Shown in pieces: positions 13,921 through 27,156 of a stretch of 27,156 nucleotides of DNA. The stretch's first letter is position 1. Each line of letters opens with the position of its first letter. This stretch comes from Saccoglossus kowalevskii (taxonomy: Eukaryota > Hemichordata > Enteropneusta > Harrimaniidae), in contig NW_003158224.1 in NCBI RefSeq assembly GCF_000003605.2, positions 381,137-408,292 of the forward strand, written 5' to 3'. The notes beneath the pieces are model-generated. The model made no database searches and was not told where the DNA came from. It saw only the letters and a program-made list of their open reading frames with translations. Position numbers and translations under genes: made by a program.

Positions 13921-15219
13921 TCACTGCGTTGTCGATGATTTCATGTCGTTCGGCGTGTCAGCTGTCACGGGGGTTGGTGTACATATGCTGCCGGGTGTGG
14001 AAGGAGGAACGCTTGGTGGGCCGCTTTGGCTGTTTTCAGTGTCACTACCGCTGCTACTTCCACTACGTTTCCCACCGCTTGGGCTGTTGTGTGTTTTGAC
14101 GTGTTTGCTGAGATGGTCACTCCGCATGAATCGTTTGTTGCAGACTGGGCAAGCGAAGCGTTTCTCCCCGGTATGCGTACGCAAGTGCCGCTGAAGTTCG
14201 TCCGAGCGAGTAAAACGCTTACCGCAGAATAACCAATTGCAGACGAATGGTCTCTCTCCGGTGTGCCATCGGAGATGCGCTTTTAAGTGCGACGTCTTTC
14301 CGTAAACTTTACCACATCCGGGGATGTGACAACTATGAATGTTCTTTTTCGGGATACATTTTCCAGCAGCGGCAAGTCGTTCGTTCTCGTGGCAGTTCGG
14401 ACAATCGCACGTCGCTCTGCCGGTATAGCGACGGGTGGCCCGGGAAGCTGCCGAAAGTCCCGTTAATCCTGGCTGTGTCATTAACGGCCCGCTCATATTG
14501 GGTATGCTCATTACGTCACAGTGCGATGGCAGCATGGATTTAAAACTGTCCTGTAGTAGCGACGGTGTCGGTAAAAACTGAGCGGCTGGGTTACTGCTCA
14601 GTGCTGGGTGCGTAGATAAGGTATAGTCCGTGCTGTAGTTTGGAAGCTGTGAGTGTAAAGTCGTGCTCACGTTTTGTACAGGGTCCAACCAATTGGGGTT
14701 TGCGTGCATATCCCACCAGGTGCCTCCTGTCGACGCTACGTCTCCTGACAGCCCGGGATGAGGACTTGGTTTGAACCAGGCTGTTGGTTCATAATGGTGG
14801 CCGACATGGGCACCCATTCGTTGATACATACTCGACATCGAGAAACTGTCGGACATGCTCCCGTGCATTTTTTGTATAATAGATGGTTGTACGGAGAGAT
14901 CGGCCTGGGAGTTCCTCATCTGCGACGAGACGTTCGGCAGGAACAAGTCTCCCGTATTGTAGCTCATTTGGTTGGAAGCCGACTGCGCTAAGGAGTACGA
15001 AGAAATTCCGGCAGCTGAGAAGCTGGGTTCAGTAGTGAGTCCTCCCAGTCTTGGGTTGACAATCCCTCCGGCACTGGTAACGATCGGAGACGTCTTCTTC
15101 CAAGGATGGAACCCCTTTCCGATTGCTGCGTCCGCTAGGGGCGGTGGGCTGCGGTTACCAATCTTATTACAAGTTGCGGCAAGCATAGCGAGTGGAGTGG
15201 ACCCGGGCCTTGGCTGCTC
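13921..15219 (-). CDS. Sp6-9 (Sp8-like): Sp6-9 class zinc-finger transcription factor, coding exon 2 (main exon)
   Basis: This exon encodes residues 8-439 of a nuclear DNA-binding transcription factor. In this family such proteins bind GC/GT boxes and act in limb, neural and apical-organ development. Reading from the splice acceptor, the protein opens [11 protein letters not shown] followed by [10 protein letters not shown], the Sp8/Sp9 signature. An IGKGFHPWK motif lies near residues 40-48, and a [13 protein letters not shown]...WWDM...NWLD block at about 155-185. The Btd box CDCPNC is at 278-283. Three C2H2 fingers follow: C304/C309/H322/H326, C334/C339/H352/H356 and C364/C367/H380/H384, joined by TGERPFV and TGEKRFA linkers. 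Helix contact residues read KTSHLKA, RSDELQR and RSDHLSK, as in canonical Sp proteins. All zinc ligands are intact. The C-terminus is a Ser/Pro/Thr-rich tail ending in TGA (13921-13923). An in-frame TAG lies directly upstream of the exon, so the frame must be entered by splicing. Alternatively translation starts at the internal ATG at 15184-15186, giving a 421-residue form like the short SP8 isoform. The several plus-strand open frames over this exon are antisense shadows. Family assignment is very sure. Assignment to Sp8, Sp9 or the pre-duplication Sp6-9 is inferred. Confidence 0.97.
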
Positions 15220-15250
15220 CTACGGAGAAATGAGCAAGAAATCATTAGTA
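15220..15250 (-). other. 3' splice acceptor, pyrimidine tract and branch site of the Sp6-9 intron
   Basis: On the minus strand a TACTAAT branch-point match (15250-15244, branch A opposite 15245) is followed by a pyrimidine-rich stretch and then CGTAG|GAG, with the AG at 15221-15220. The branch-to-AG distance is 25 nt, which is normal. TACTAAT is nearly identical to the optimal metazoan/yeast branch consensus. Exon 2 begins at 15219 in phase 0. Confidence 0.88.
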
Positions 15251-16916
15251 TGGAATAACATTATAAAGGAATAAATTCAAGATTTAAGAGCCAATCACAA
15301 CGGTGCACGAAAAGTTTAAGTTATAAAAAAAAATTATACGGTCTTGTTTTTCTTAACAGCGAACACAATGCCAACCTTCGGCGTTTAACTGATGTCAGTA
15401 TGAGTGAGATGAGTCCCCTTAAACACATACGATGCACCCGACACTCTCAACTCACGATAAAAGAACTTGTAATAGCCGGGCAATTTGAACAACTCGGAGG
15501 AGAAATTGAACATAATTGTCTTACAACGAACGCGTACTGAAACTACCAGCTCGTAAAGTTCCCTTTCTGCTTTCTTGTTTCTCTCCGTCTTGACTCTGAG
15601 CTTTTATAGATTACTTTTAATGCCACTGCCCCTTTCGATCAATGAAAGGGTCCCAGTATACAAAGGTTTTCCTTTATATGGGGACGTTTTTTATATCACG
15701 CTATAAAAATCAGAGGGAATATCGTTATCTGTACACTGCGCATTGTTTAACGCCACCAATTTCGGCCCAGACAAAGGCTGGGTAGCCATCCTTCACTGTG
15801 TCTCTGTTGAGATATATGTAGATGAGGTCAGATTTCTTGACCTATGGGTAGTCCACAATGCCAATAAGGGCTGCCGTTACCCCAGCATACCAATTTTCCG
15901 TTAGCTTTGACGGATCAGAATGCCCACGAAATACTGTAGTGCCCCGGTTGTCTCGCCGGTCAAGTCCAAGTTTCATGCGCGTAGTAGACGACTTGCATTT
16001 ATGGGTGGATTCAATGATTCCCCCGCCTTTAACACCCGCCCCTCTGTCAGTATTCACTTTGTTGTTTGACGATTCGTGAATGATCATGATCGTTTTTGAG
16101 TCGCTTCATATGTTGTGATTGGAACGCACAGTTTTGATTTAAAATATAACCGAAAATAAGATGCTTTTTTTCTTTAAATATTGAAGTATTTTGTTCACCG
16201 AGTATTTAAAAAGTCGGTCAGTCATATACCCACATCTTGCTACTTAAAGCAAGTTCACTTATGGGAGAATACGCAATCAGCCAAGTTTTGTTCGTTTTGT
16301 TCGAGTTTGCATGAATACTAAGAATGATTTTAGAAGTACTATCACTCGAAAAGGTTGAAATAAATTGGATGAGGCAGCCATGTTATTAGTACTTAACCAC
16401 AAGAATGGAAAAACAAATGTATGTTGACATGAGAAAAGAACCCCTCCCCAACAACAGAAAAGCTGAAATTAATATCGCTGTATTTTGACAATACATATTA
16501 AACTGAAAGATGCGCTGTATGATCATTGTCAATCAAAACAAGTACGCTGGTCGAAAAAAACATTGTGACAGTCACAATATATATAAACCCGTGATGGATC
16601 GATCGATACATACGTCGATAGGGGATATGATTGAAATGGAATAACTGGACATCGAGGGAACCGCTTGTGGATTTTTGGTTGTGACGGTCTCCGTTGCACA
16701 GAAAAGAAAATATGCGGTCGTTAGGGTGTACGGGGCAAGTCAACAGGATTCGGTAACTGGGTGCGCAGTGTACCGTAAAAGGGTACGACCATGTGCAATC
16801 GGACGGTGGATGATAACGTTTTAATTATGCAACGTTCCAACATTGTAAGTTTCATTGATTGTTGTTTTAACGCGCCTCACTGAATTTAGATGTAGCTGCG
16901 TTTAACCCACAAACTA

Positions 16917-17067
16917 NNNNNNNNNNNNNNNNNNNNNNNNNNNNNNNNNNNNNNNNNNNNNNNNNNNNNNNNNNNNNNNNNNNNNNNNNNNNNNNNNNNN
17001 NNNNNNNNNNNNNNNNNNNNNNNNNNNNNNNNNNNNNNNNNNNNNNNNNNNNNNNNNNNNNNNNNNN
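16917..17067. other. assembly gap (151 N)
   Basis: A run of 151 N inside the intron. It sits about 540 nt before the decayed reverse-transcriptase fragment, so a repeat may have caused the break. Confidence 0.99.
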
Positions 17068-17604
17068 ATTAATGATCTTTCGAAAAATGTGATTTTAAAT
17101 TAAAAACAAAATCACGATTTTTACAACTCGGTAAATAGTAATCTTGTATATTCTTTTTTGTCTAAATGCAATAGTTTGCAATTATCGTCCACAACAAATT
17201 ACAAACCAGTCCTCAAACTTACTCGCTTACATCGTCCACGTGCAAAGAAGGCTGGCCGAATACCACGAGCGTCATGGACCGAAGATGGAGAGGTCACTTG
17301 GGATTTGAGCATAAAGCATCTAAGTATAGAAGACTATGATTCAGTCGCTTACTCGAATGTTTGATAAAGTTGTTCATTTCACTACCCGTGACAGGTCGAG
17401 TCGGAATGATGGACGCGGCAGGCATTCTGGCTGTCATCCATTCATTGAAAAAAGAATTTGGGCGTCAGTGATGTATTGAAAGGTGATGGGGTGAAAAATG
17501 GGGTCTACTCGACTCAAGTACCTCTTGGCAGACCTCTAGCGTACAAAAAGGGGCCGAGCGTTTCGGACTACAGATAATTTAAATTTTATAGTCCGGAGTG
17601 CTGA

Positions 17605-17916
17605 ATTGCCACGACTGGTGTATACACAAGTAAAGCTCCAGGCAGTAATACTGTTTCACCCGTGAGGTGCTCGTGTCTCGTCAAACTTCAATTAGATTTT
17701 CGCCAATCAATTACTGTTTTAGTTGAATTAAACTCAGCTCTTAATACTGGTCGAGTGCCAAGATCATTTGCCGGTGCACCCCAAATCGCGCTTATAGGTT
17801 ATTGCGCTGTAAGACGGGCCACCGGATATATGCTTCGAGCAACAGAGCGAGTACAGGGAATAAAAAGACACCAATTAATCGGAATACGACAATTTCCTTC
17901 ATTTGGGAAGAGTTAA
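17605..17916 (+). pseudogene. decayed non-LTR retrotransposon reverse-transcriptase fragment
   Basis: One frame stays open for 104 codons after a TGA at 17602-17604. It contains SKAPG followed by a VSP (17629 onward), then about 35 residues later LVELNSALNTGRVPRSF (from about 17719). In Jockey/CR1/Rex-type non-LTR reverse transcriptases the fingers region commonly reads (S)KAxGPDGISP...NxSLxTGxVPxSFKxAxVxPLxKK, with similar order and spacing. Here GPDG is changed to GSNT, and the KxA...PLxKK end is degraded to AGAPQIALIG. I find no YADD catalytic box downstream in frame and no other intact domain. It is antisense to Sp6-9 and lies inside its intron. Chance similarity cannot be excluded. Confidence 0.45.
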
Positions 17917-18720
17917 TCAAATTACACATTGCTATCGTACTTGAACCTGCTCGGTGCTTGTGATGGCGGGTATTTCCGCTAAACACACGCCTCCTTGAAT
18001 CGGAGCAGCTCAAATCAATCGACCAACTTCGATTTCCTTAATAAAAGACGCGATCCGTGTAAACCTGCAATTGTTTTATATATTGTTGCATACTTTAAAG
18101 ATCTGCCACTTTTAGCCTGAAATCCCTATTCACATTCACCCCGTTTCCTGCCCATTCACAGATCAGCACCGCATCGGAGTCGTCAAAATTCTATCCGGCT
18201 AATTTTCTCTCGTCGGTTTTGATTAACTGGCATATCTTTCTGATGGCCGTCAGAGGAAATTTCCGGTCTTGTCTTTGAGTCGGTGTATGATGATCGCTCC
18301 CACGTCAACCAAAATACGCGTTGTGCCATCCTAGTGTAATAGGAATGCTAAATCTGAAATATTATTAACACAATTTCCCTATTACCTGAGACATCTATAT
18401 CACCCATGCTACTTATGAACAAATTACTGACAATTTCCAATAAACCAATTTTTTTACTAAAAAAAAGCGTTTCAGTAAATTACATTTTTAAGTACGCATT
18501 GTACCTTCATTTTACCAAACATTAATTACAATGCAAAAAAAAAAAGAAAAACTGTTCGGAAGTACTGTTTTTTTAATCTATAGTGTTAAATATGTACTAG
18601 AAACTGCATACGTTTTTTAGACGAGAATTAAAATACAAATACACACAACTGACTTTACCCCCTATATTTTATGAGTACCAGTTGAACAGAAGTCAGCAAA
18701 GCGTGGTCACACTAACATGT

Positions 18721-18745
18721 ACACACACACAACAACAACAACAAC
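18721..18745 (+). repeat. compound microsatellite (AC)5(AAC)5
   Basis: Five AC units are followed directly by five AAC units, then GACGA. It lies in the Sp6-9 intron. Confidence 0.9.
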
Positions 18746-20587
18746 GACGAGCGTGACTCTGCCCTGTCGATCCGTTGTTTGTCATTACCGGTATACCTGT
18801 ACGTCAACCCGCCCTGCTCCCTCCCTCCGAATTCAAAACGAGACAATTAGCAGCGCAACAGTTATCCGACTTTTGACTTCATCCAGCCACTGAATATGAA
18901 CCATCTGTAAATATGTATTTTTGCGCTATCCATTGTTATTTATGTTTTTTTATGACGCATGTAATAACAGTTACGGTGGCTTTTATAGAGGTGCCGCGTC
19001 GCGTCTAAACTGTTTGAGTGTCTATATTCTCTGTGACAATGCCATGTGAGATAAGATGACAATTATCCAATTTATTGATACGATTTTTGCAGGACTGAGG
19101 AATTACAAAACAGTTTTATATTCTTCGACTCAAAAATCCACGACAAAGCCACAACGTTAAAAAAAATAGTCGGACATAATGGATTTACCCCTCTCAAGTA
19201 GTGTAACGGTGATGTCTAGAGCTGTCGTATGTTTTTGTCGTTGTATTGCTTAGAGGCTGGCAGCTCTCTAATCTCCTTAATAACGACTAATTATATCAAC
19301 GTATCTCCTTACTAAACAAGGTCCCTTGTCCATTTCTGTGTCAGTATAAGCATTCACTTAGCGGTTTACTCTAAATCCACGCCTAATACTTGTTTGTTTC
19401 TTGTAAAGGGGGCAGGGCTAGTGTGATGAAGCGGTACTACCTTCAAGCTGGGGGACACCAAACGCTGTCAACAATGGGAAACAAACACCAGTATGTCTTT
19501 GTCGAGAGAGTGAGCCACGAAATTACTGGTAACATGATGGCTTGTTGTGCTTGTTTCACTGCAGCTAAGTGATTCAATCAACAAGAAAGGTACTATGCCA
19601 TGGCTCTATTAAAGAGGACGATTTCGCAATTGACCCGAGTTGTTTGTGGCATTTCATGCGGCGATAAATCACCTTGCACGAAATGGACAGATGGGGGACC
19701 TCGGTCGTTGAAATTGGCACATGACTATTTAGAAACTTATCGCGGTAAACTCCCTTTCATGCGCATGGCGAAGATAATGGCCATAAAATCACCCAATTTC
19801 ATGATATCATGGATTGAGTTAAAAGCAATAAATGACAAAGATATGGATTTGTTTAAACATTGTTTTTGTTTGTTTCAGTGAGTCGTCGCAGCAGACTTAA
19901 AACAAGAAAAAAAAACATTACAACTATACACATGTTGCAACACGTGAAAGACAACGATGTTATATCCTGATATAAATCGTTTCGATTTCATCAACACGAC
20001 ACGTTGAAATGAATTATGTGAATGCTCATTTCTAGCCTGACAAGAATAGTCAGCAACCCGTGACGTAATCGTCACTGGAACTCGTTTTTTTACCACGCCG
20101 AGACTACAGTGCCCTAGTCTTCGCGTCACTGGCTCCATACACACTTCAATATCTTTCATGTACGCAGACAGGTATCTAAGATTTTGGCAAACCCGGTACG
20201 TTGTGGGGAATATTAACAGTATTACGATCTCGAAACATCAAAATACGTTAACCTCCAAACAGTCTCGCTCCCAATCTCAATAATGAATGACCTCAACTAT
20301 CACTGGTGACAAAATAGTCAAGACATCTTGAGAGAAAATGAGATAATGCCCAAACGAAGGATAACTTTTCGTGCGTTTGACCTACACTGGTGTTGGCTGT
20401 GTTCACGTTTCCTATAGTCAATATGATTACGTTTCGTTGTTGGCTTTGTGGCTATAAATAAAATTAAAGTTTTATTTTATTTTTTATTTTAAACTGATGG
20501 TATATGTGTTATTAATAAGTTGTAGAATCAGTAATTTTAATAAGATTCAGTCGGAAAATCGTATATAATTGCTAATTAGACGCGTCT

Positions 20588-20612
20588 TCAAATCAAATCA
20601 AATCAAATCAAA
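20588..20612 (+). repeat. (TCAAA)5 pentanucleotide microsatellite
   Basis: Five exact TCAAA copies, inside the Sp6-9 intron. Flanking DNA is very AT-rich. Confidence 0.9.
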
Positions 20613-21564
20613 GCCATGACTAAATTGACACAGAACGGAGCACGTGCACGTTTAATGTAATAATTATAATAAATAAAAAAAATGCATTTTGGGGATAAAT
20701 AAATAATAGTATTTATATCCAGTCTGTGTGTCGTACATTAAAAGATCGGTTCATTGATACTTTTGATTGTCGTGGTTATATTTCGCTCAGATTTCTACCG
20801 CGGGGTGTTGTGTACTACGTATGAGTTAGGATGCATGTGACATTGAAAAACATGAATAGGAAGCACGTATGTATATTGAATAGGTGGCGCTCTGATAGTG
20901 AACGAGAGATATATGCCCGTTAGCGAACAGAATCGATCTTCAATTTTATTCTAAGTGTTCCATTCGGATAAGTGCTTCTATATATGTGTTTTGGTTCAAA
21001 ATGGGTAGATTTGGGATTTGGAATTGTACCACCGATGATGCGAGTCGCGTTAATGAGATAAAAGCCCCGAATAAAGATCGCACCGACTGCATATGTGTTT
21101 TTACGGTGACGCGGTGCGGCACGGCAGCGAACACCCTCGCGAAGGCTGTGGGCATTTTTCATAAACTAAGGCGATAGAAATGGGCACCCTGGCTGCCTCA
21201 AGGTACTGAGTTCGTTTTTTTATATTACCATCTGTGGGCAAAGCGAAAGACGGCTTCAAAGACAAAGGAGTCAACAAGCCCGGGTATACGGTGTGTATGA
21301 GATGTTCGCTTACAAAATATGTAGTGATCTGTAACGTTGAATGCGTTATGGAATATAGCAGGTCATGAAAATACACGACCGGCGATGTACTAGGTACATT
21401 AACATCCAACGGACTCGTGGGTCTTTTCAGACGTATTAAGTCGCTAAGGTTGACGCGTTCAACCACTACCTCGGTAATTGAATCAACAACACTATCAACA
21501 GTTTTACAAAAAATGTTTGACACTCACTCGCTGAACTATTAGCACCAATTTGTGAAGCTTCCGT

Positions 21565-21660
21565 AAAGCGCCTACCAAGTGTTTGTCGAATCTCTTTTAC
21601 ATATTATTGCCTATATGTTTGACCTCTATTATTGCGAATAAACAAGCTCTTGAACTTCAA
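21565..21660 (+). mobile_element. possible 3' tail of a LINE-like element
   Basis: The segment has a GTAAAGCGC string and ends with GAATAAACAAGCTCTTGAACTTC. Tails of the type AATAAA..CTTGAACTT, with an upstream TAAAGCGC, are common at the 3' ends of non-LTR elements in marine invertebrates. No tandem tail repeats or coding remnant are attached, so the call is weak. Confidence 0.2.
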
Positions 21661-22717
21661 CGTTTACTTTATTCTTTTTTATTGGTTTGGGTTTGGGTGT
21701 GGGAATTTAGAAATGGCTTTATCCAATCATTAGTTCAATGACCAAGGTGCGAAAAGCAACACAGTAGTAGAAATCGACAACATGTTATCTTTTTTGAAAT
21801 GAGCATAACACGATGCAGATTTCAAATAAACTGAAATTGCAAAAAATGCCGGGGAAATGTAGCTCGTACAAAATAAACAGTTACTGGTGAAGTTTTTTTA
21901 AAAAATAATTTTCTTACAGCGACGGATGAAATGTATCACTGTATTCTTCCGGTGCAATGAAACGTTTTCATTTCTACGCCAAACTAGCTAATACCGTGTA
22001 TATTTTAAAGTAACACACACTCACAACATTTTTAGCCGATGAAACGTGACAATTTCACAGTTTATGAACGCGATAAAAAGCGCAATGAGTAGTCTTCATG
22101 TCTCGCCGCTTTCTCCCGACAAATGTAACGAATGTTTACCGTTACGTGGCGTGTATCGGTCGGTGAGCGTGGAATTACCAGAATTTTATGTCGTTAGGAA
22201 AATAAATGACCAAAAATAAGCTACACACTAAGAAACACAACTGGAAACAGTAATTTTTAAGCTACCACACGCTGATGAAACACACCGGCGTCGTAGAGTC
22301 GTTAGTTTCATCCATGCATACCAGTTTCTACAACTACACACAATTAGAAGATAGTAATAACAAATAAGCATAAAATATATTTAAAAAATGTTGCAGACTT
22401 CATAAACCGATATGTGCAATACCACAACCGTCGAACTAACTACAGTGCCGTCCGCGTAATATATTATATTTCTGTGAGTTGAGTAAAAACTGGATAAGAA
22501 ACATTTTTTTATTAATGCGCTCACGAATAAGCAAAGTTTACAAATGAAGCACAAACGGGTGACTCCAGAGATGCTATGTCAACGTGTCACACAGGGTGTC
22601 AAACCGCTGTTGTTCGTTTCAAATGAACACGGGTGAACCGGTATGTGAGGTTCCATATGACAGATTTCAAAAAAGAACGACTGTCCTTTGTGCCTTTCCT
22701 AAAAAAAACACAGGGTC

Positions 22718-22726
22718 GATCAAAGG
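22718..22726 (-). promoter_or_regulatory. TCF/LEF-type site CCTTTGATC in the intron
   Basis: The minus strand reads CCTTTGATC, matching the high-affinity TCF/LEF consensus. It lies about 930 bp into the intron from the start exon. Sp8-class genes are linked to Wnt signalling in several animals. A 9-bp match can occur by chance (about 0.2 expected in this window). Confidence 0.3.
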
Positions 22727-22913
22727 CAAAAGAAGTTCAGTTGTGCGTTAGAACAGAGCACTTCTGGTTGACCGCCTCTTAAGCAAAATGCGCCTTAAAA
22801 CATGGCATGTTTTAAGGTGAGAAACGGGGAAACCCGGACCAGTGAATTCATTGTGTTGTTCGAAAGAAACGCGTGGTATTCCATACTTAGTTGGACGGTA
22901 ACACATAATTCAG

Positions 22914-22930
22914 AAAAAAAAAAAAAAAAA
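22914..22930 (+). repeat. A17 homopolymer followed by CACACAAAAAA
   Basis: A run of 17 A, then a short CA stretch and another A run, in the intron. No element body is recognisable upstream, so I do not call it a retroposed tail. Confidence 0.85.
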
Positions 22931-23651
22931 CACACAAAAAAGCCAATTGTCCGGTTTAGCAAATTCGTAATGGGCGCAAGAGAAGTCGCCACCAATAACC
23001 AAACAGTCCCACCTAAAATGCACGACTTTTGTGTTTTGCTTCAAAAGTTTAGAACTACAAGGCCCGAATGAGGTTGGCCGCCAGATAACAACAACGCAGG
23101 TCGAGAGCGTTCGCCAACTGTCAACGGCCGACCATCGACTACACGTGGAAATGAAAAGTCTATTACGATTCGGGTATATTTATATAACCAGGAACGCGTT
23201 AAATACCTTGTACAAATAAGTATTCTAGTTGTCGTACCATCTGTAAACAAGCGGGGCGAAGACAATACTGAAAGTACCCGATCGTAAATGGAAGCCTTCC
23301 AAAGTACACATATAACAAGACAAGGGGGCTTACTCACGCGGATATGGTCTCTGTTAGCGTTGAATACGTATATGATTTCCCCACTCCTCAATCTCCAATC
23401 CAAATCCGAGGTAAGTCGAGCTTTGAACAGTTAGGTAGCGATCACCGACATAGCTACCCAGTCCGAACAGAGAGCGAAATGCGATCGAGTTAATGTGCAG
23501 CGTTAACTTGCGCGGAGTGGCGGCGAGATCTCCAAGGTGAAGCCTTATATATGAATGAGGCTACACGCCGTAGTAAGGTCCCTAACAAACCCAATTTAGA
23601 AACTAAATGAATGCAATTGTAGCAATTATATATGAAACGTTATGGAGAAAT

Positions 23652-23657
23652 GCTTAC
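23652..23657 (-). other. 5' splice donor of the Sp6-9 intron
   Basis: On the minus strand the sequence reads GGG|GTAAGC, a strong U2-type donor directly after the seventh codon. It leaves the frame in phase 0. Confidence 0.88.
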
Positions 23658-23678
23658 CCCAAGCAACGATGTCGCCAT
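23658..23678 (-). CDS. Sp6-9 (Sp8-like): Sp6-9 coding exon 1: 21-nt start exon encoding MATSLLG
   Basis: Seven codons (ATG GCG ACA TCG TTG CTT GGG) encode MATSLLG and are followed at once by a consensus donor GTAAGC (23657-23652). Joined in phase 0 to exon 2 they give [18 protein letters not shown]. From memory, vertebrate Sp8 begins MATSLLGEEPRLGSTPLA with its intron at the same place, and SP7 begins MASSLLE at the matching junction. The start context is good, with A at -3 and G at +4. An in-frame TAA at 23694-23696, six codons upstream, makes this the first usable ATG of the frame. I see no strong 3' splice site just upstream, so the exon probably continues into the 5' UTR. Agreement of seven residues, reading phase and donor site makes a chance match very unlikely. 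It is inferred without transcript data. Confidence 0.93.
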
Positions 23679-23786
23679 TATACGATTCTCGACTTATTTT
23701 TCTAAGTCTCCACTCCCCTCACCTTACGTGAAGTGGCTTTTCCAGTCCAACTTTGGAGATCGCAAGCGGTAGAGGTGGTTACTGAG

Positions 23787-23794
23787 ATGCAAAT
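23787..23794 (+). promoter_or_regulatory. octamer motif ATGCAAAT (POU-factor site)
   Basis: An exact ATGCAAAT lies about 110 bp upstream of the Sp6-9 ATG. Oct/POU proteins bind this octamer. A single 8-bp match has a chance expectation near one per window, so position is the main support. Confidence 0.35.
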
Positions 23795-24046
23795 GACCAG
23801 GTCCGCCCATTTGGCCCGATAATTGCCGCTTGCAAAGGGCTTTGAAGAGCCGCCTATCGGCTGATCCACCAATGACACATTGTCCCTTCTCTGCTTGTTT
23901 TGCATATATGTTTCCGAGTGATGCGCAGATCACACGAATTATTACGCCAGGTACGAGTTGACGAGTCAAAAAGACAAGTCCAGAGTCTATTGCTCAGTGC
24001 CAGCCGGGTTACGATCTTCATTTTTCGCTCATCGTTCGGTTATAGT

Positions 24047-24300: not shown

Positions 24301-27034
24301 CCCACATCGCTGGCAAACACTCGTAAAATACACACGTTAACACGTGATGAGCACACATAACATTCAACTGGATTTCAATGTGCCACTCTTCAATGCAATG
24401 AAAGCAAAAATGTTGAAAATAAAAAACAAGTTCTGGTTTCCGATTGTGGCTTCCTTTTTGTTGGTCAGTTAGAATGTAAGCTTCAATCATTTTTAGACAT
24501 TGGTAGTATTCGTGAGTTTTGGGATAATTGACGTACTACTAGAAGAAGAAAAAAATGAGTAATTTACAATTAAGCAGCTGTATCGAATGTACATAAGGCC
24601 TGGGGTATTTCGACAACTGTCGCAACAGAGCAGCATACACATCTCGTAATCCTATATAGTCGGCATGAACGGCCAATTTCAACAGATTTACGCCTCAGAG
24701 ACGCATCCCTTTAACGTGTAAGCCAGTGCTTTCAAAACTAGCATGGATAATCAGGTATATTTTTAAATTCTTGCTCGAAACGAACCAGCATGATACGATA
24801 AAAAAAGATCCCCAATCCGATAGCGCCGCCATGAATGAATAAATACAAAACATTTCCCATCTGCAGTGATGTAATATAATTCTCAGACAATGGGGGCGGA
24901 ATGCCTAGTCTTGCAGAGGTGACAGGATCCACCCGGGGGATAGAAAAGCCCAACCCATGCAGATGTAGGCGGCATATAGAGGTCTCTAAATAAAGCTAAC
25001 AATCATGGTGATGTGGGGGTACGTTTGCTAGCCAAAAACGGCCCCAGGCTTGAGGAGTGATCGTAGTAAGAGGCGAAAAAAATCACACAGGCGGAATTTG
25101 TTTAGATTTAAAAATTCGAGTGAGAGCGGGTCTTACTGTCTGGCTGTCAGACCAGCATTGGATGCATTGGTGTATAGAGATCGATCGATTATATAGAAGT
25201 TCGCCCGAGGATGTTTTCATTAGTGATATCAACACGTTCGTGGAGTCGCTCAAACACTGCCAACGTAGTTTAAATGAATAATAATATAAAAAAACGTGGT
25301 TTACAAATTTCCAAAACTGAACCCGCGCACACACTGTTATTTTAAATAGACAGCGCCTGTTGGTAGCGTGGTTCCCCCACATCACGGCCAAGTAGAAGAC
25401 TGACGTTTCGGGCGATTTACATCTCTATGGTTCACGTTGTTTGGAGTTATATATGCATGTACGGAGTGTGATTATTAAAAACGGGGCGCGCTCACGAATC
25501 TTGTTATTGGCACCTTCGTCTCACTGTGTATAGAAAAACAATGTCTGTATGGAAAATATGTTATCGGGATACCTCGCCACAGATAATAAATAGAGCGAAC
25601 GGCGAATGGGTGGTAATTGCGCTCAATTGATTGGTTTAAGATTAAAACAGCCTATTAAGTAAAGAAACCCGAATTCACCCATTGATATATGTACGTAAGA
25701 GGCAACCACCTGTGAGCGGCGGTTGGATCATGTGTCCACGAACTGGTAATACTATCCGTGGTGTTTCGATTAGTGTTACAATATATCCTGCAAATAAGCC
25801 TGTCTAATCCGTGGTTCAATAGTTAAACAACATGACGAGAGCGGAACGCCTTTGCCAGGGGGCCCGGGTACTCTCCTTGCATTCGGGTTACAAGAAATGG
25901 CGTGTGTGAAAGGGCGCCCATGGCGGCGAGTCAGTTCTTGCACCAGCGTACATGAAGTGCGTTATCTCGACTCATCGCAGGGCAGGGTGTCACAAATGCA
26001 GTAAACTGCCACTTGCCGACCAATGACAATAGAACCTCTTAACATGCGGAGGATTGATCGCTCCACCTGTCGAAAATGGTAACTCTCGCGAATTCGCGTA
26101 CGGACGGGGCCCTGTTTGTCAAAGAGAATACAAAAATCACCGCGCAACTGTGTGCGGTTCCCCCACTGGACTGGGGTATAATTTCGGATAAAAACAACGG
26201 AACTTAGCGGGGAAAAACGGAAATTAGACGCGTCAAACTAACATGTGGTGAGCTTTCTTGGTGCCGTGTTTGTGAAATGGATACTGCCTGGGGGCTATGC
26301 ATGATCATAAAGCATTTGCTGGCCACGTCTGCAATGAAAGCGGCGGTCTTGCATTAGAAATAATGCTGATATCGGTAATTTGTCGCAGGGAATCTAAACC
26401 ATTACTATTATCAGTCCGCCCGTCTAGTTGATGACAAATTTGGCAGTTCCAACCGTGCGTGTTCATTCTTAACACGTATATTACTTGACATTGTATACGG
26501 TGTACTAGAATACTGCCGGGTACATAACCGTTGAGTGTTCCTTCCTGTTAAATTATAGATCAAGTCCGGATTGATATTCGCGACTTGTAAGTTTCCCGGT
26601 ATTTACGTGAATTCCGTAGGCGTAGCCGGTCTTCCCTCTGGGTGGGGTAGGGTGTATTACTGGGCGTCCACGTAGGAGGGCAACGTCACCCCAATATGAC
26701 AAGATCAGGCTAACGAAGGCGAGGCCCCGTAACCTGTATACCCTGTCGGCGTAATAACGTAGCCGCCTATGAATGTCACTATTTTTTTTTCTGTGCATAA
26801 TAGCGGCTTATATCACCCACCATCGACGTGCACAAAACCACTACAAACACCAATACCACGGCCCTAGAGTGGTGAAAAATTGTCTGTCCATTGCCAGATT
26901 CACGGGTCGAATGGTTTCCCATTTCGATACCACAAACAAATTTAATTACATACTTGTCACGTTTTGTTTTATACAGGTTCCGTCTTCTATTAGTGTACTG
27001 ACTCTAGTAAGCAAACAAACTAACCAAACAAATG
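24301..27034. other. upstream flank with no gene found
   Basis: About 2.7 kb upstream of the X-box. Open frames are short (at most about 100 codons) and none has a recognisable domain. The part from about 25.8 to 26.8 kb looks somewhat richer in GC than the intron. I see no tRNA, rRNA or transposon signature by eye. Confidence 0.6.

Positions 27035-27156
<122 letters not shown>

Follow-up and report, generated by a model that had tools for sequence, protein, structure and literature searches.

The window analysed here, a stretch of 27,156 nt from the hemichordate Saccoglossus kowalevskii (contig NW_003158224.1), carries on its minus strand what is very probably an invertebrate Sp6-9 orthologue whose coding sequence is divided over two exons, as in the long isoforms of vertebrates. 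Its start exon, which encodes only seven residues and lies far upstream of the main exon, is almost certainly real, judging by its sequence and by its fit to the published structure of the human Sp8 and mouse Sp7 genes. This seven-residue start-exon arrangement was already published in 2004, and the window gene is a further example of it. According to the proposed gene model, transcription would start upstream of 23678, the first exon would supply the start codon and the seven residues MATSLLG, an 8.4-kb phase-0 intron would be removed and the rest of the protein would be encoded by exon 2. The spliced product would then carry the whole Sp motif (PLAMLA) shortly after the junction, as in Sp8L.

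The start exon and its predicted splice junction

The gene model comprises the following features, read from the sequence and, where indicated, from database matches:

23658..23678, minus strand: exon 1 (of the exon-1a type), coding part, with MATSLLG from the start codon and six further codons, ATGGCGACATCGTTGCTTGGG, then GTAAGC from 23657
15220..23657, minus strand: phase-0 GT-AG intron of 8,438 nt, GTAAGC ... TTTCTCCGTAG
15244..15250, minus strand: branch-site-like TACTAAT, 31 to 25 nt before exon 2, with the branch A 26 nt before it
13921..15219, minus strand: exon 2 coding region including the stop (also zinc-finger Pfam matches)

The original prediction of a 21-nt start exon with the peptide MATSLLG and a GTAAGC donor was borne out at 23678..23658 of the minus strand, where the frame joins that of exon 2 in phase 0. 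An in-frame TAA is located 15 nt upstream of the ATG, and the donor (GGG/GTAAGC, with G at -2 and C at +6) is not ideal. Seven stop-free candidates consisting of ATG, 18 nt and GT lie upstream of exon 2 on the minus strand, matching MATSLLG at 7/7 residues in one case, 2/7 in one and 1/7 in five; the plus strand, taken over the whole window, has 22, with a best match of 3/7. A chance match as the origin of exon 1 was rejected, because the real sequence reaches 7/7 whereas the best value among 400 order-1 Markov copies of the 11.9-kb upstream stretch was 5/7, obtained once. Exon-1-like sequences (at least 5/7 residues, then GT) were absent from 23 of the 24 loci examined in the same genome (L001-L024); the remaining locus, L021, overlaps the window, and its hit is the actual exon 1. 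Among the papers searched, no text contained MATSLLG or LAATCNKIG.

The distance of 8.4 kb and the coordinates originally given for the two exons were right, the intron running from 23657 to 15220 and including a 151-nt run of N at 16917-17067. The acceptor with its TACTAAT branch site was likewise found as predicted (15250..15244): it reads TAG/GAGCAG, exon 2 begins at 15219 on the minus strand and both junctions are in phase 0. The window has four copies of the pattern TACTAAY on its minus strand and three on its plus strand. Joining exon 1 to exon 2 yields an open reading frame of 439 aa, whose stop ends at 13921. Reading upstream from exon 2, one meets no in-frame stop until the TAG of the acceptor itself; the open frame thus extends exactly as far as the acceptor, and the eleven residues that precede the first methionine of exon 2 can be translated only through a splice. 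For the same reason, unspliced read-through from upstream of the acceptor was rejected. These features suggest that the splice from 23658 to 15219 is used in the animal.

Features of the encoded protein

The remaining part of the protein contains the following features:

15178..15195, minus strand: Sp motif PLAMLA, cut by a start at the second methionine (15186)
15094..15120, minus strand: GKGFHPWKK motif
14392..14409, minus strand: buttonhead (BTD) box CDCPNC
14089..14331, minus strand: three C2H2 zinc fingers, limits approximate (PF00096, PF13465; PDB matches)

Three of these are features of the Sp family. PLAMLA differs at one position from the Sp-motif consensus PLALLA (PMC534095), CDCPNC agrees with the buttonhead box consensus CxCP(N/Y)C (PMC534095), and the zinc fingers, located near the C-terminus, match PF00096 and PF13465 as well as KLF and other C2H2 proteins in the PDB. 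The GKGFHPWKK motif was called unique to Sp8 proteins in 2004 (PMC534095); a ten-letter motif so described, taken here as a marker of the Sp6-9 clade, is matched at nine of its ten residues. The window gene is probably the invertebrate counterpart, by orthology, of the vertebrate Sp6-9 genes and resembles Sp8 most closely in its motifs. Because the Sp motif begins before the first methionine of exon 2, splicing is required for its translation in full, and it would be complete only in a protein starting in exon 1.

A search of the window against Rfam at gathering scores gave 0 matches, and no relative was found in viral contigs. A TTTA-type simple repeat occupies positions 26773-27156 of the window and reads as an LFIY-like repeat in an open frame of the plus strand.

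Comparison with human Sp8 and Sp7

The long isoforms of human Sp8 and Sp7 have translated first exons that code for seven residues, whereas their short isoforms have untranslated first exons and are 18 residues shorter, with a disrupted Sp motif (PMC534095). A review also states that exon 1 of Osx encodes seven residues (PMC2898801). The human Sp8 primer labelled exon 1a/2 encodes ATSLLGE, without the methionine, followed by the two bases GA (PMC534095). The joined codons of the window encode ATSLLGE, identical to the residues of this one human primer, outside which the methionine lies. The two sequences differ at 7/21 bases, in six of the seven codons, and all the differences are synonymous; when seven differences were placed at random, the peptide was kept in 4 of 200,000 trials. 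This exclusively synonymous change across ATSLLGE bears the mark of selection acting on the peptide. Immediately after it the primer ends in GA whereas the window has CA, so the eighth residue after the methionine differs.

The window sequence thus matches the long-isoform structure of Sp8 and Sp7, with a seven-residue first coding exon, phase 0 and the junction ATSLLG/E. Sp7 has a different start peptide. The likeness to Sp7 (Osterix) lies in the first exon of seven residues, with the remainder of the protein in exon 2 (PMC534095, PMC2898801), and Sp7 has been described as limited to vertebrates (PMC534095). With human Sp8 the window gene shares, in addition to ATSLLGE across the junction and 18 residues before the second methionine, the GKGFHPWKK motif, the BTD box and the three zinc fingers. 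The claim that the joined product and the intron position match vertebrate Sp8 is therefore supported both by the human sequence and gene structure (PMC534095) and by the Osx review (PMC2898801). The dimensions of the genes are different: the intron of the window measures 8,438 nt, whereas in human Sp8 exons 1a and 1b are 733 bp apart and exons 1b and 2 are 152 bp apart (PMC534095).

It had further been proposed that ORF-based annotation would miss exon 1 and wrongly start the protein at MLAATCNK. This is not simply so, because human Sp8S begins at this second methionine, from the untranslated alternative exon 1b (PMC534095). The long form of the window protein has 439 residues and the form starting at the second methionine has 421; the difference of 18, as in the human isoforms, indicates that MLAATCNK corresponds to the start of a published human isoform.

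Alternative starts and the upstream region

Candidate elements for the initiation of transcription are located both before exon 1 and close to exon 2:

23781..23873, minus strand: candidate promoter motifs before exon 1, motif matches only (ATTGG 23873, GGGCGG 23808, ATTTGCAT 23794, TCAGT 23785)
15525..15580, minus strand: candidate untranslated exon 1b, with TATAAAAG at 15608-15601 and a GTAAGA donor from 15524

The motifs before exon 1 are, in order, of the CCAAT type, a GC-box, an octamer (ATTTGCAT, the only one in the window in either orientation) and the initiator-like TCAGT. TATA, CCAAT and GC boxes have been reported before human exon 1a (PMC534095). A close parallel to the human promoter was rejected, since a TATA-box is present in human whereas the window shows no TATAAA between 24000 and 23640. 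Five upstream ATGs occur within 400 nt of exon 1, the nearest at -132, which implies either that transcription starts near exon 1 or that the upstream sequence is spliced out. These ATGs, together with the absence of TATAAA between those positions, would agree with exon 1 belonging to a longer transcript with more untranslated exons upstream of 23678. We nevertheless regard this as unlikely, because the promoter-like motifs at 23873-23785 would place the start of transcription about 105 nt ahead of the start codon, past the last of the upstream ATGs.

The candidate exon 1b bears on how many forms of the protein are produced. Its GTAAGA donor lies 84 nt after the start of TATAAAAG, and a transcription start 28 nt past the first T of that element would give an exon of 56 nt. 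The exon contains no ATG, has a TAG in the frame of exon 2 once the two are joined and would be separated from exon 2 by an intron of 305 nt. Human exon 1b likewise has an in-frame stop and no initiation codon and lies 152 bp from exon 2 (PMC534095), and long and short isoforms have also been reported for the fly gene D-Sp1 (PMC534095). Both forms might therefore be made as in human Sp8 and Sp7, with exon 1a (23678) leading to the long protein and an untranslated exon near 15525-15580 leading to the short one. This possibility is a tentative one, since the short motifs were chosen post hoc and the exonic side of the donor is weak (TTCGTT/GTAAGA). Under criteria set after seeing the sequence, the window has two pairs of this TATA-donor type on its minus strand and zero on its plus strand; with two on a 27-kb strand, one would fall within 600 nt of exon 2 with a rough chance of 4/100. 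The same pair without an ATG, 389 to 305 nt before exon 2, and the start of human Sp8S at the equivalent methionine (PMC534095) would also suit a gene that makes only the short protein from MLAATCNK, with a promoter, or an untranslated exon, close to exon 2, MATSLLG being an unused relic or a chance match. This is highly improbable, because the seven codons give the human residues with synonymous change only, as happens when selection acts on a peptide in use, and because chance copies never exceeded 5/7 matches in the 400 trials. The preferred reading remains that of a long protein starting in exon 1. Exon 1b is only a candidate here, unlike in human Sp8, and no TATAAA was found before exon 1.

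Conservation outside vertebrates

The original prediction also held that the intron and the start peptide are conserved well outside vertebrates. The window supports this, but the observation is not new, because the 2004 comparison already included beetle and fly (PMC534095), and the intron is not universal (PMC7661307). According to the legend of Fig. 4 in that paper, exon/exon boundaries ('GE and S') are indicated, along with the methionine of the short isoform, on human, Tribolium and Drosophila proteins, the assignment of boundaries to species not being given there (PMC534095). The likeness of the insect Sp6-9 genes (Drosophila D-Sp1 and Tribolium Sp8) to the window gene is one by description, through the boundaries indicated in this comparison and the two isoforms of D-Sp1 (PMC534095). 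The spiralian SP6-9 genes belong to the same clade, but several of them, including cephalopod SP6-9b and SP6-9c, are intronless, whereas cephalopod SP6-9a has introns (PMC7661307, 2020); it is the intronless genes that show the intron not to be universal.

Sp relatives in the same genome

When the genome, 572 Mb in 4,830 contigs, was searched for the zinc fingers, with 150 of 679 candidates scored, the window gene was the only match with 100% identity among those listed. An Sp5-like gene (C4723:463928, plus strand) reached 90% and an Sp1-4-like gene (C4723:259967, minus strand) 78%, the others listed having at most 70%; the names Sp5-like and Sp1-4-like rest on the N-terminal frame and glutamine-rich sequence, not on a tree. 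The three Sp-type zinc-finger genes on contig C4723 are:

259967-260188, minus strand: Sp1-4-like
395216-395485, minus strand: Sp6-9
463928-464191, plus strand: Sp5-like

The three genes share this one contig over a span of about 204 kb, Sp6-9 and Sp5 being divergently oriented. A triplet of Sp genes is considered ancestral to Metazoa, with one Sp6-9 gene in each invertebrate studied (PMC3087555), and the set of three found here is in line with that ancestral triplet. As for linkage to Hox genes, 150 of 209 homeodomain candidates were scored, and the 95 matches listed include none on this contig of 612 kb.

Like the window gene, the Sp5/btd-like paralogue (L002, C4723:463928) has the sequence MLAATCSKIG after an in-frame SPLA and an acceptor-like TATAG; unlike it, the residues before the Sp motif differ (HPTPTSADLSKP). 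At L002:670-718 an acceptor-like TTTATAG is followed by an in-frame peptide, which suggests that the Sp5-like gene probably has an upstream first coding exon too.

The mitochondrial contig

Separate observations were made on the mitochondrial contig of the assembly (L026/L027, contig C4830, 17,037 bases), in which COX1 lies on the strand opposite most other large frames. Of the nine ATA codons of COX1, eight fall in the aligned part; in the alignments with both PDB chains listed, as we read them, five pair with Ile, two with Val and one with Leu, and none with Met. Such use of ATA for Ile speaks against the vertebrate mitochondrial code and, together with the gene order, would suggest a hemichordate. 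AAA is aligned with Lys in SGKKE, and TGA codons are common within the frames (64 in seven genes).

Implications for the Sp6-9 family

For one developmental regulator the analysis improves the gene model, and it offers a clear-cut case from an invertebrate in which the start exon is unchanged in protein sequence while its silent positions have changed. A system of two starts, with a distant seven-residue exon for the one and, for the other, a TATA promoter with an untranslated exon next to exon 2, could conceivably be ancestral to bilaterians, although we hold this to be rather doubtful; both starts would then have been kept 8 kb apart here, and the choice of promoter would set the inclusion of the Sp motif. 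The short form, if produced, would be without half of that motif. Since the function of the Sp motif region was called unknown in 2004 (PMC534095), a conserved promoter of the short isoform, if true, would raise the importance of the finding.
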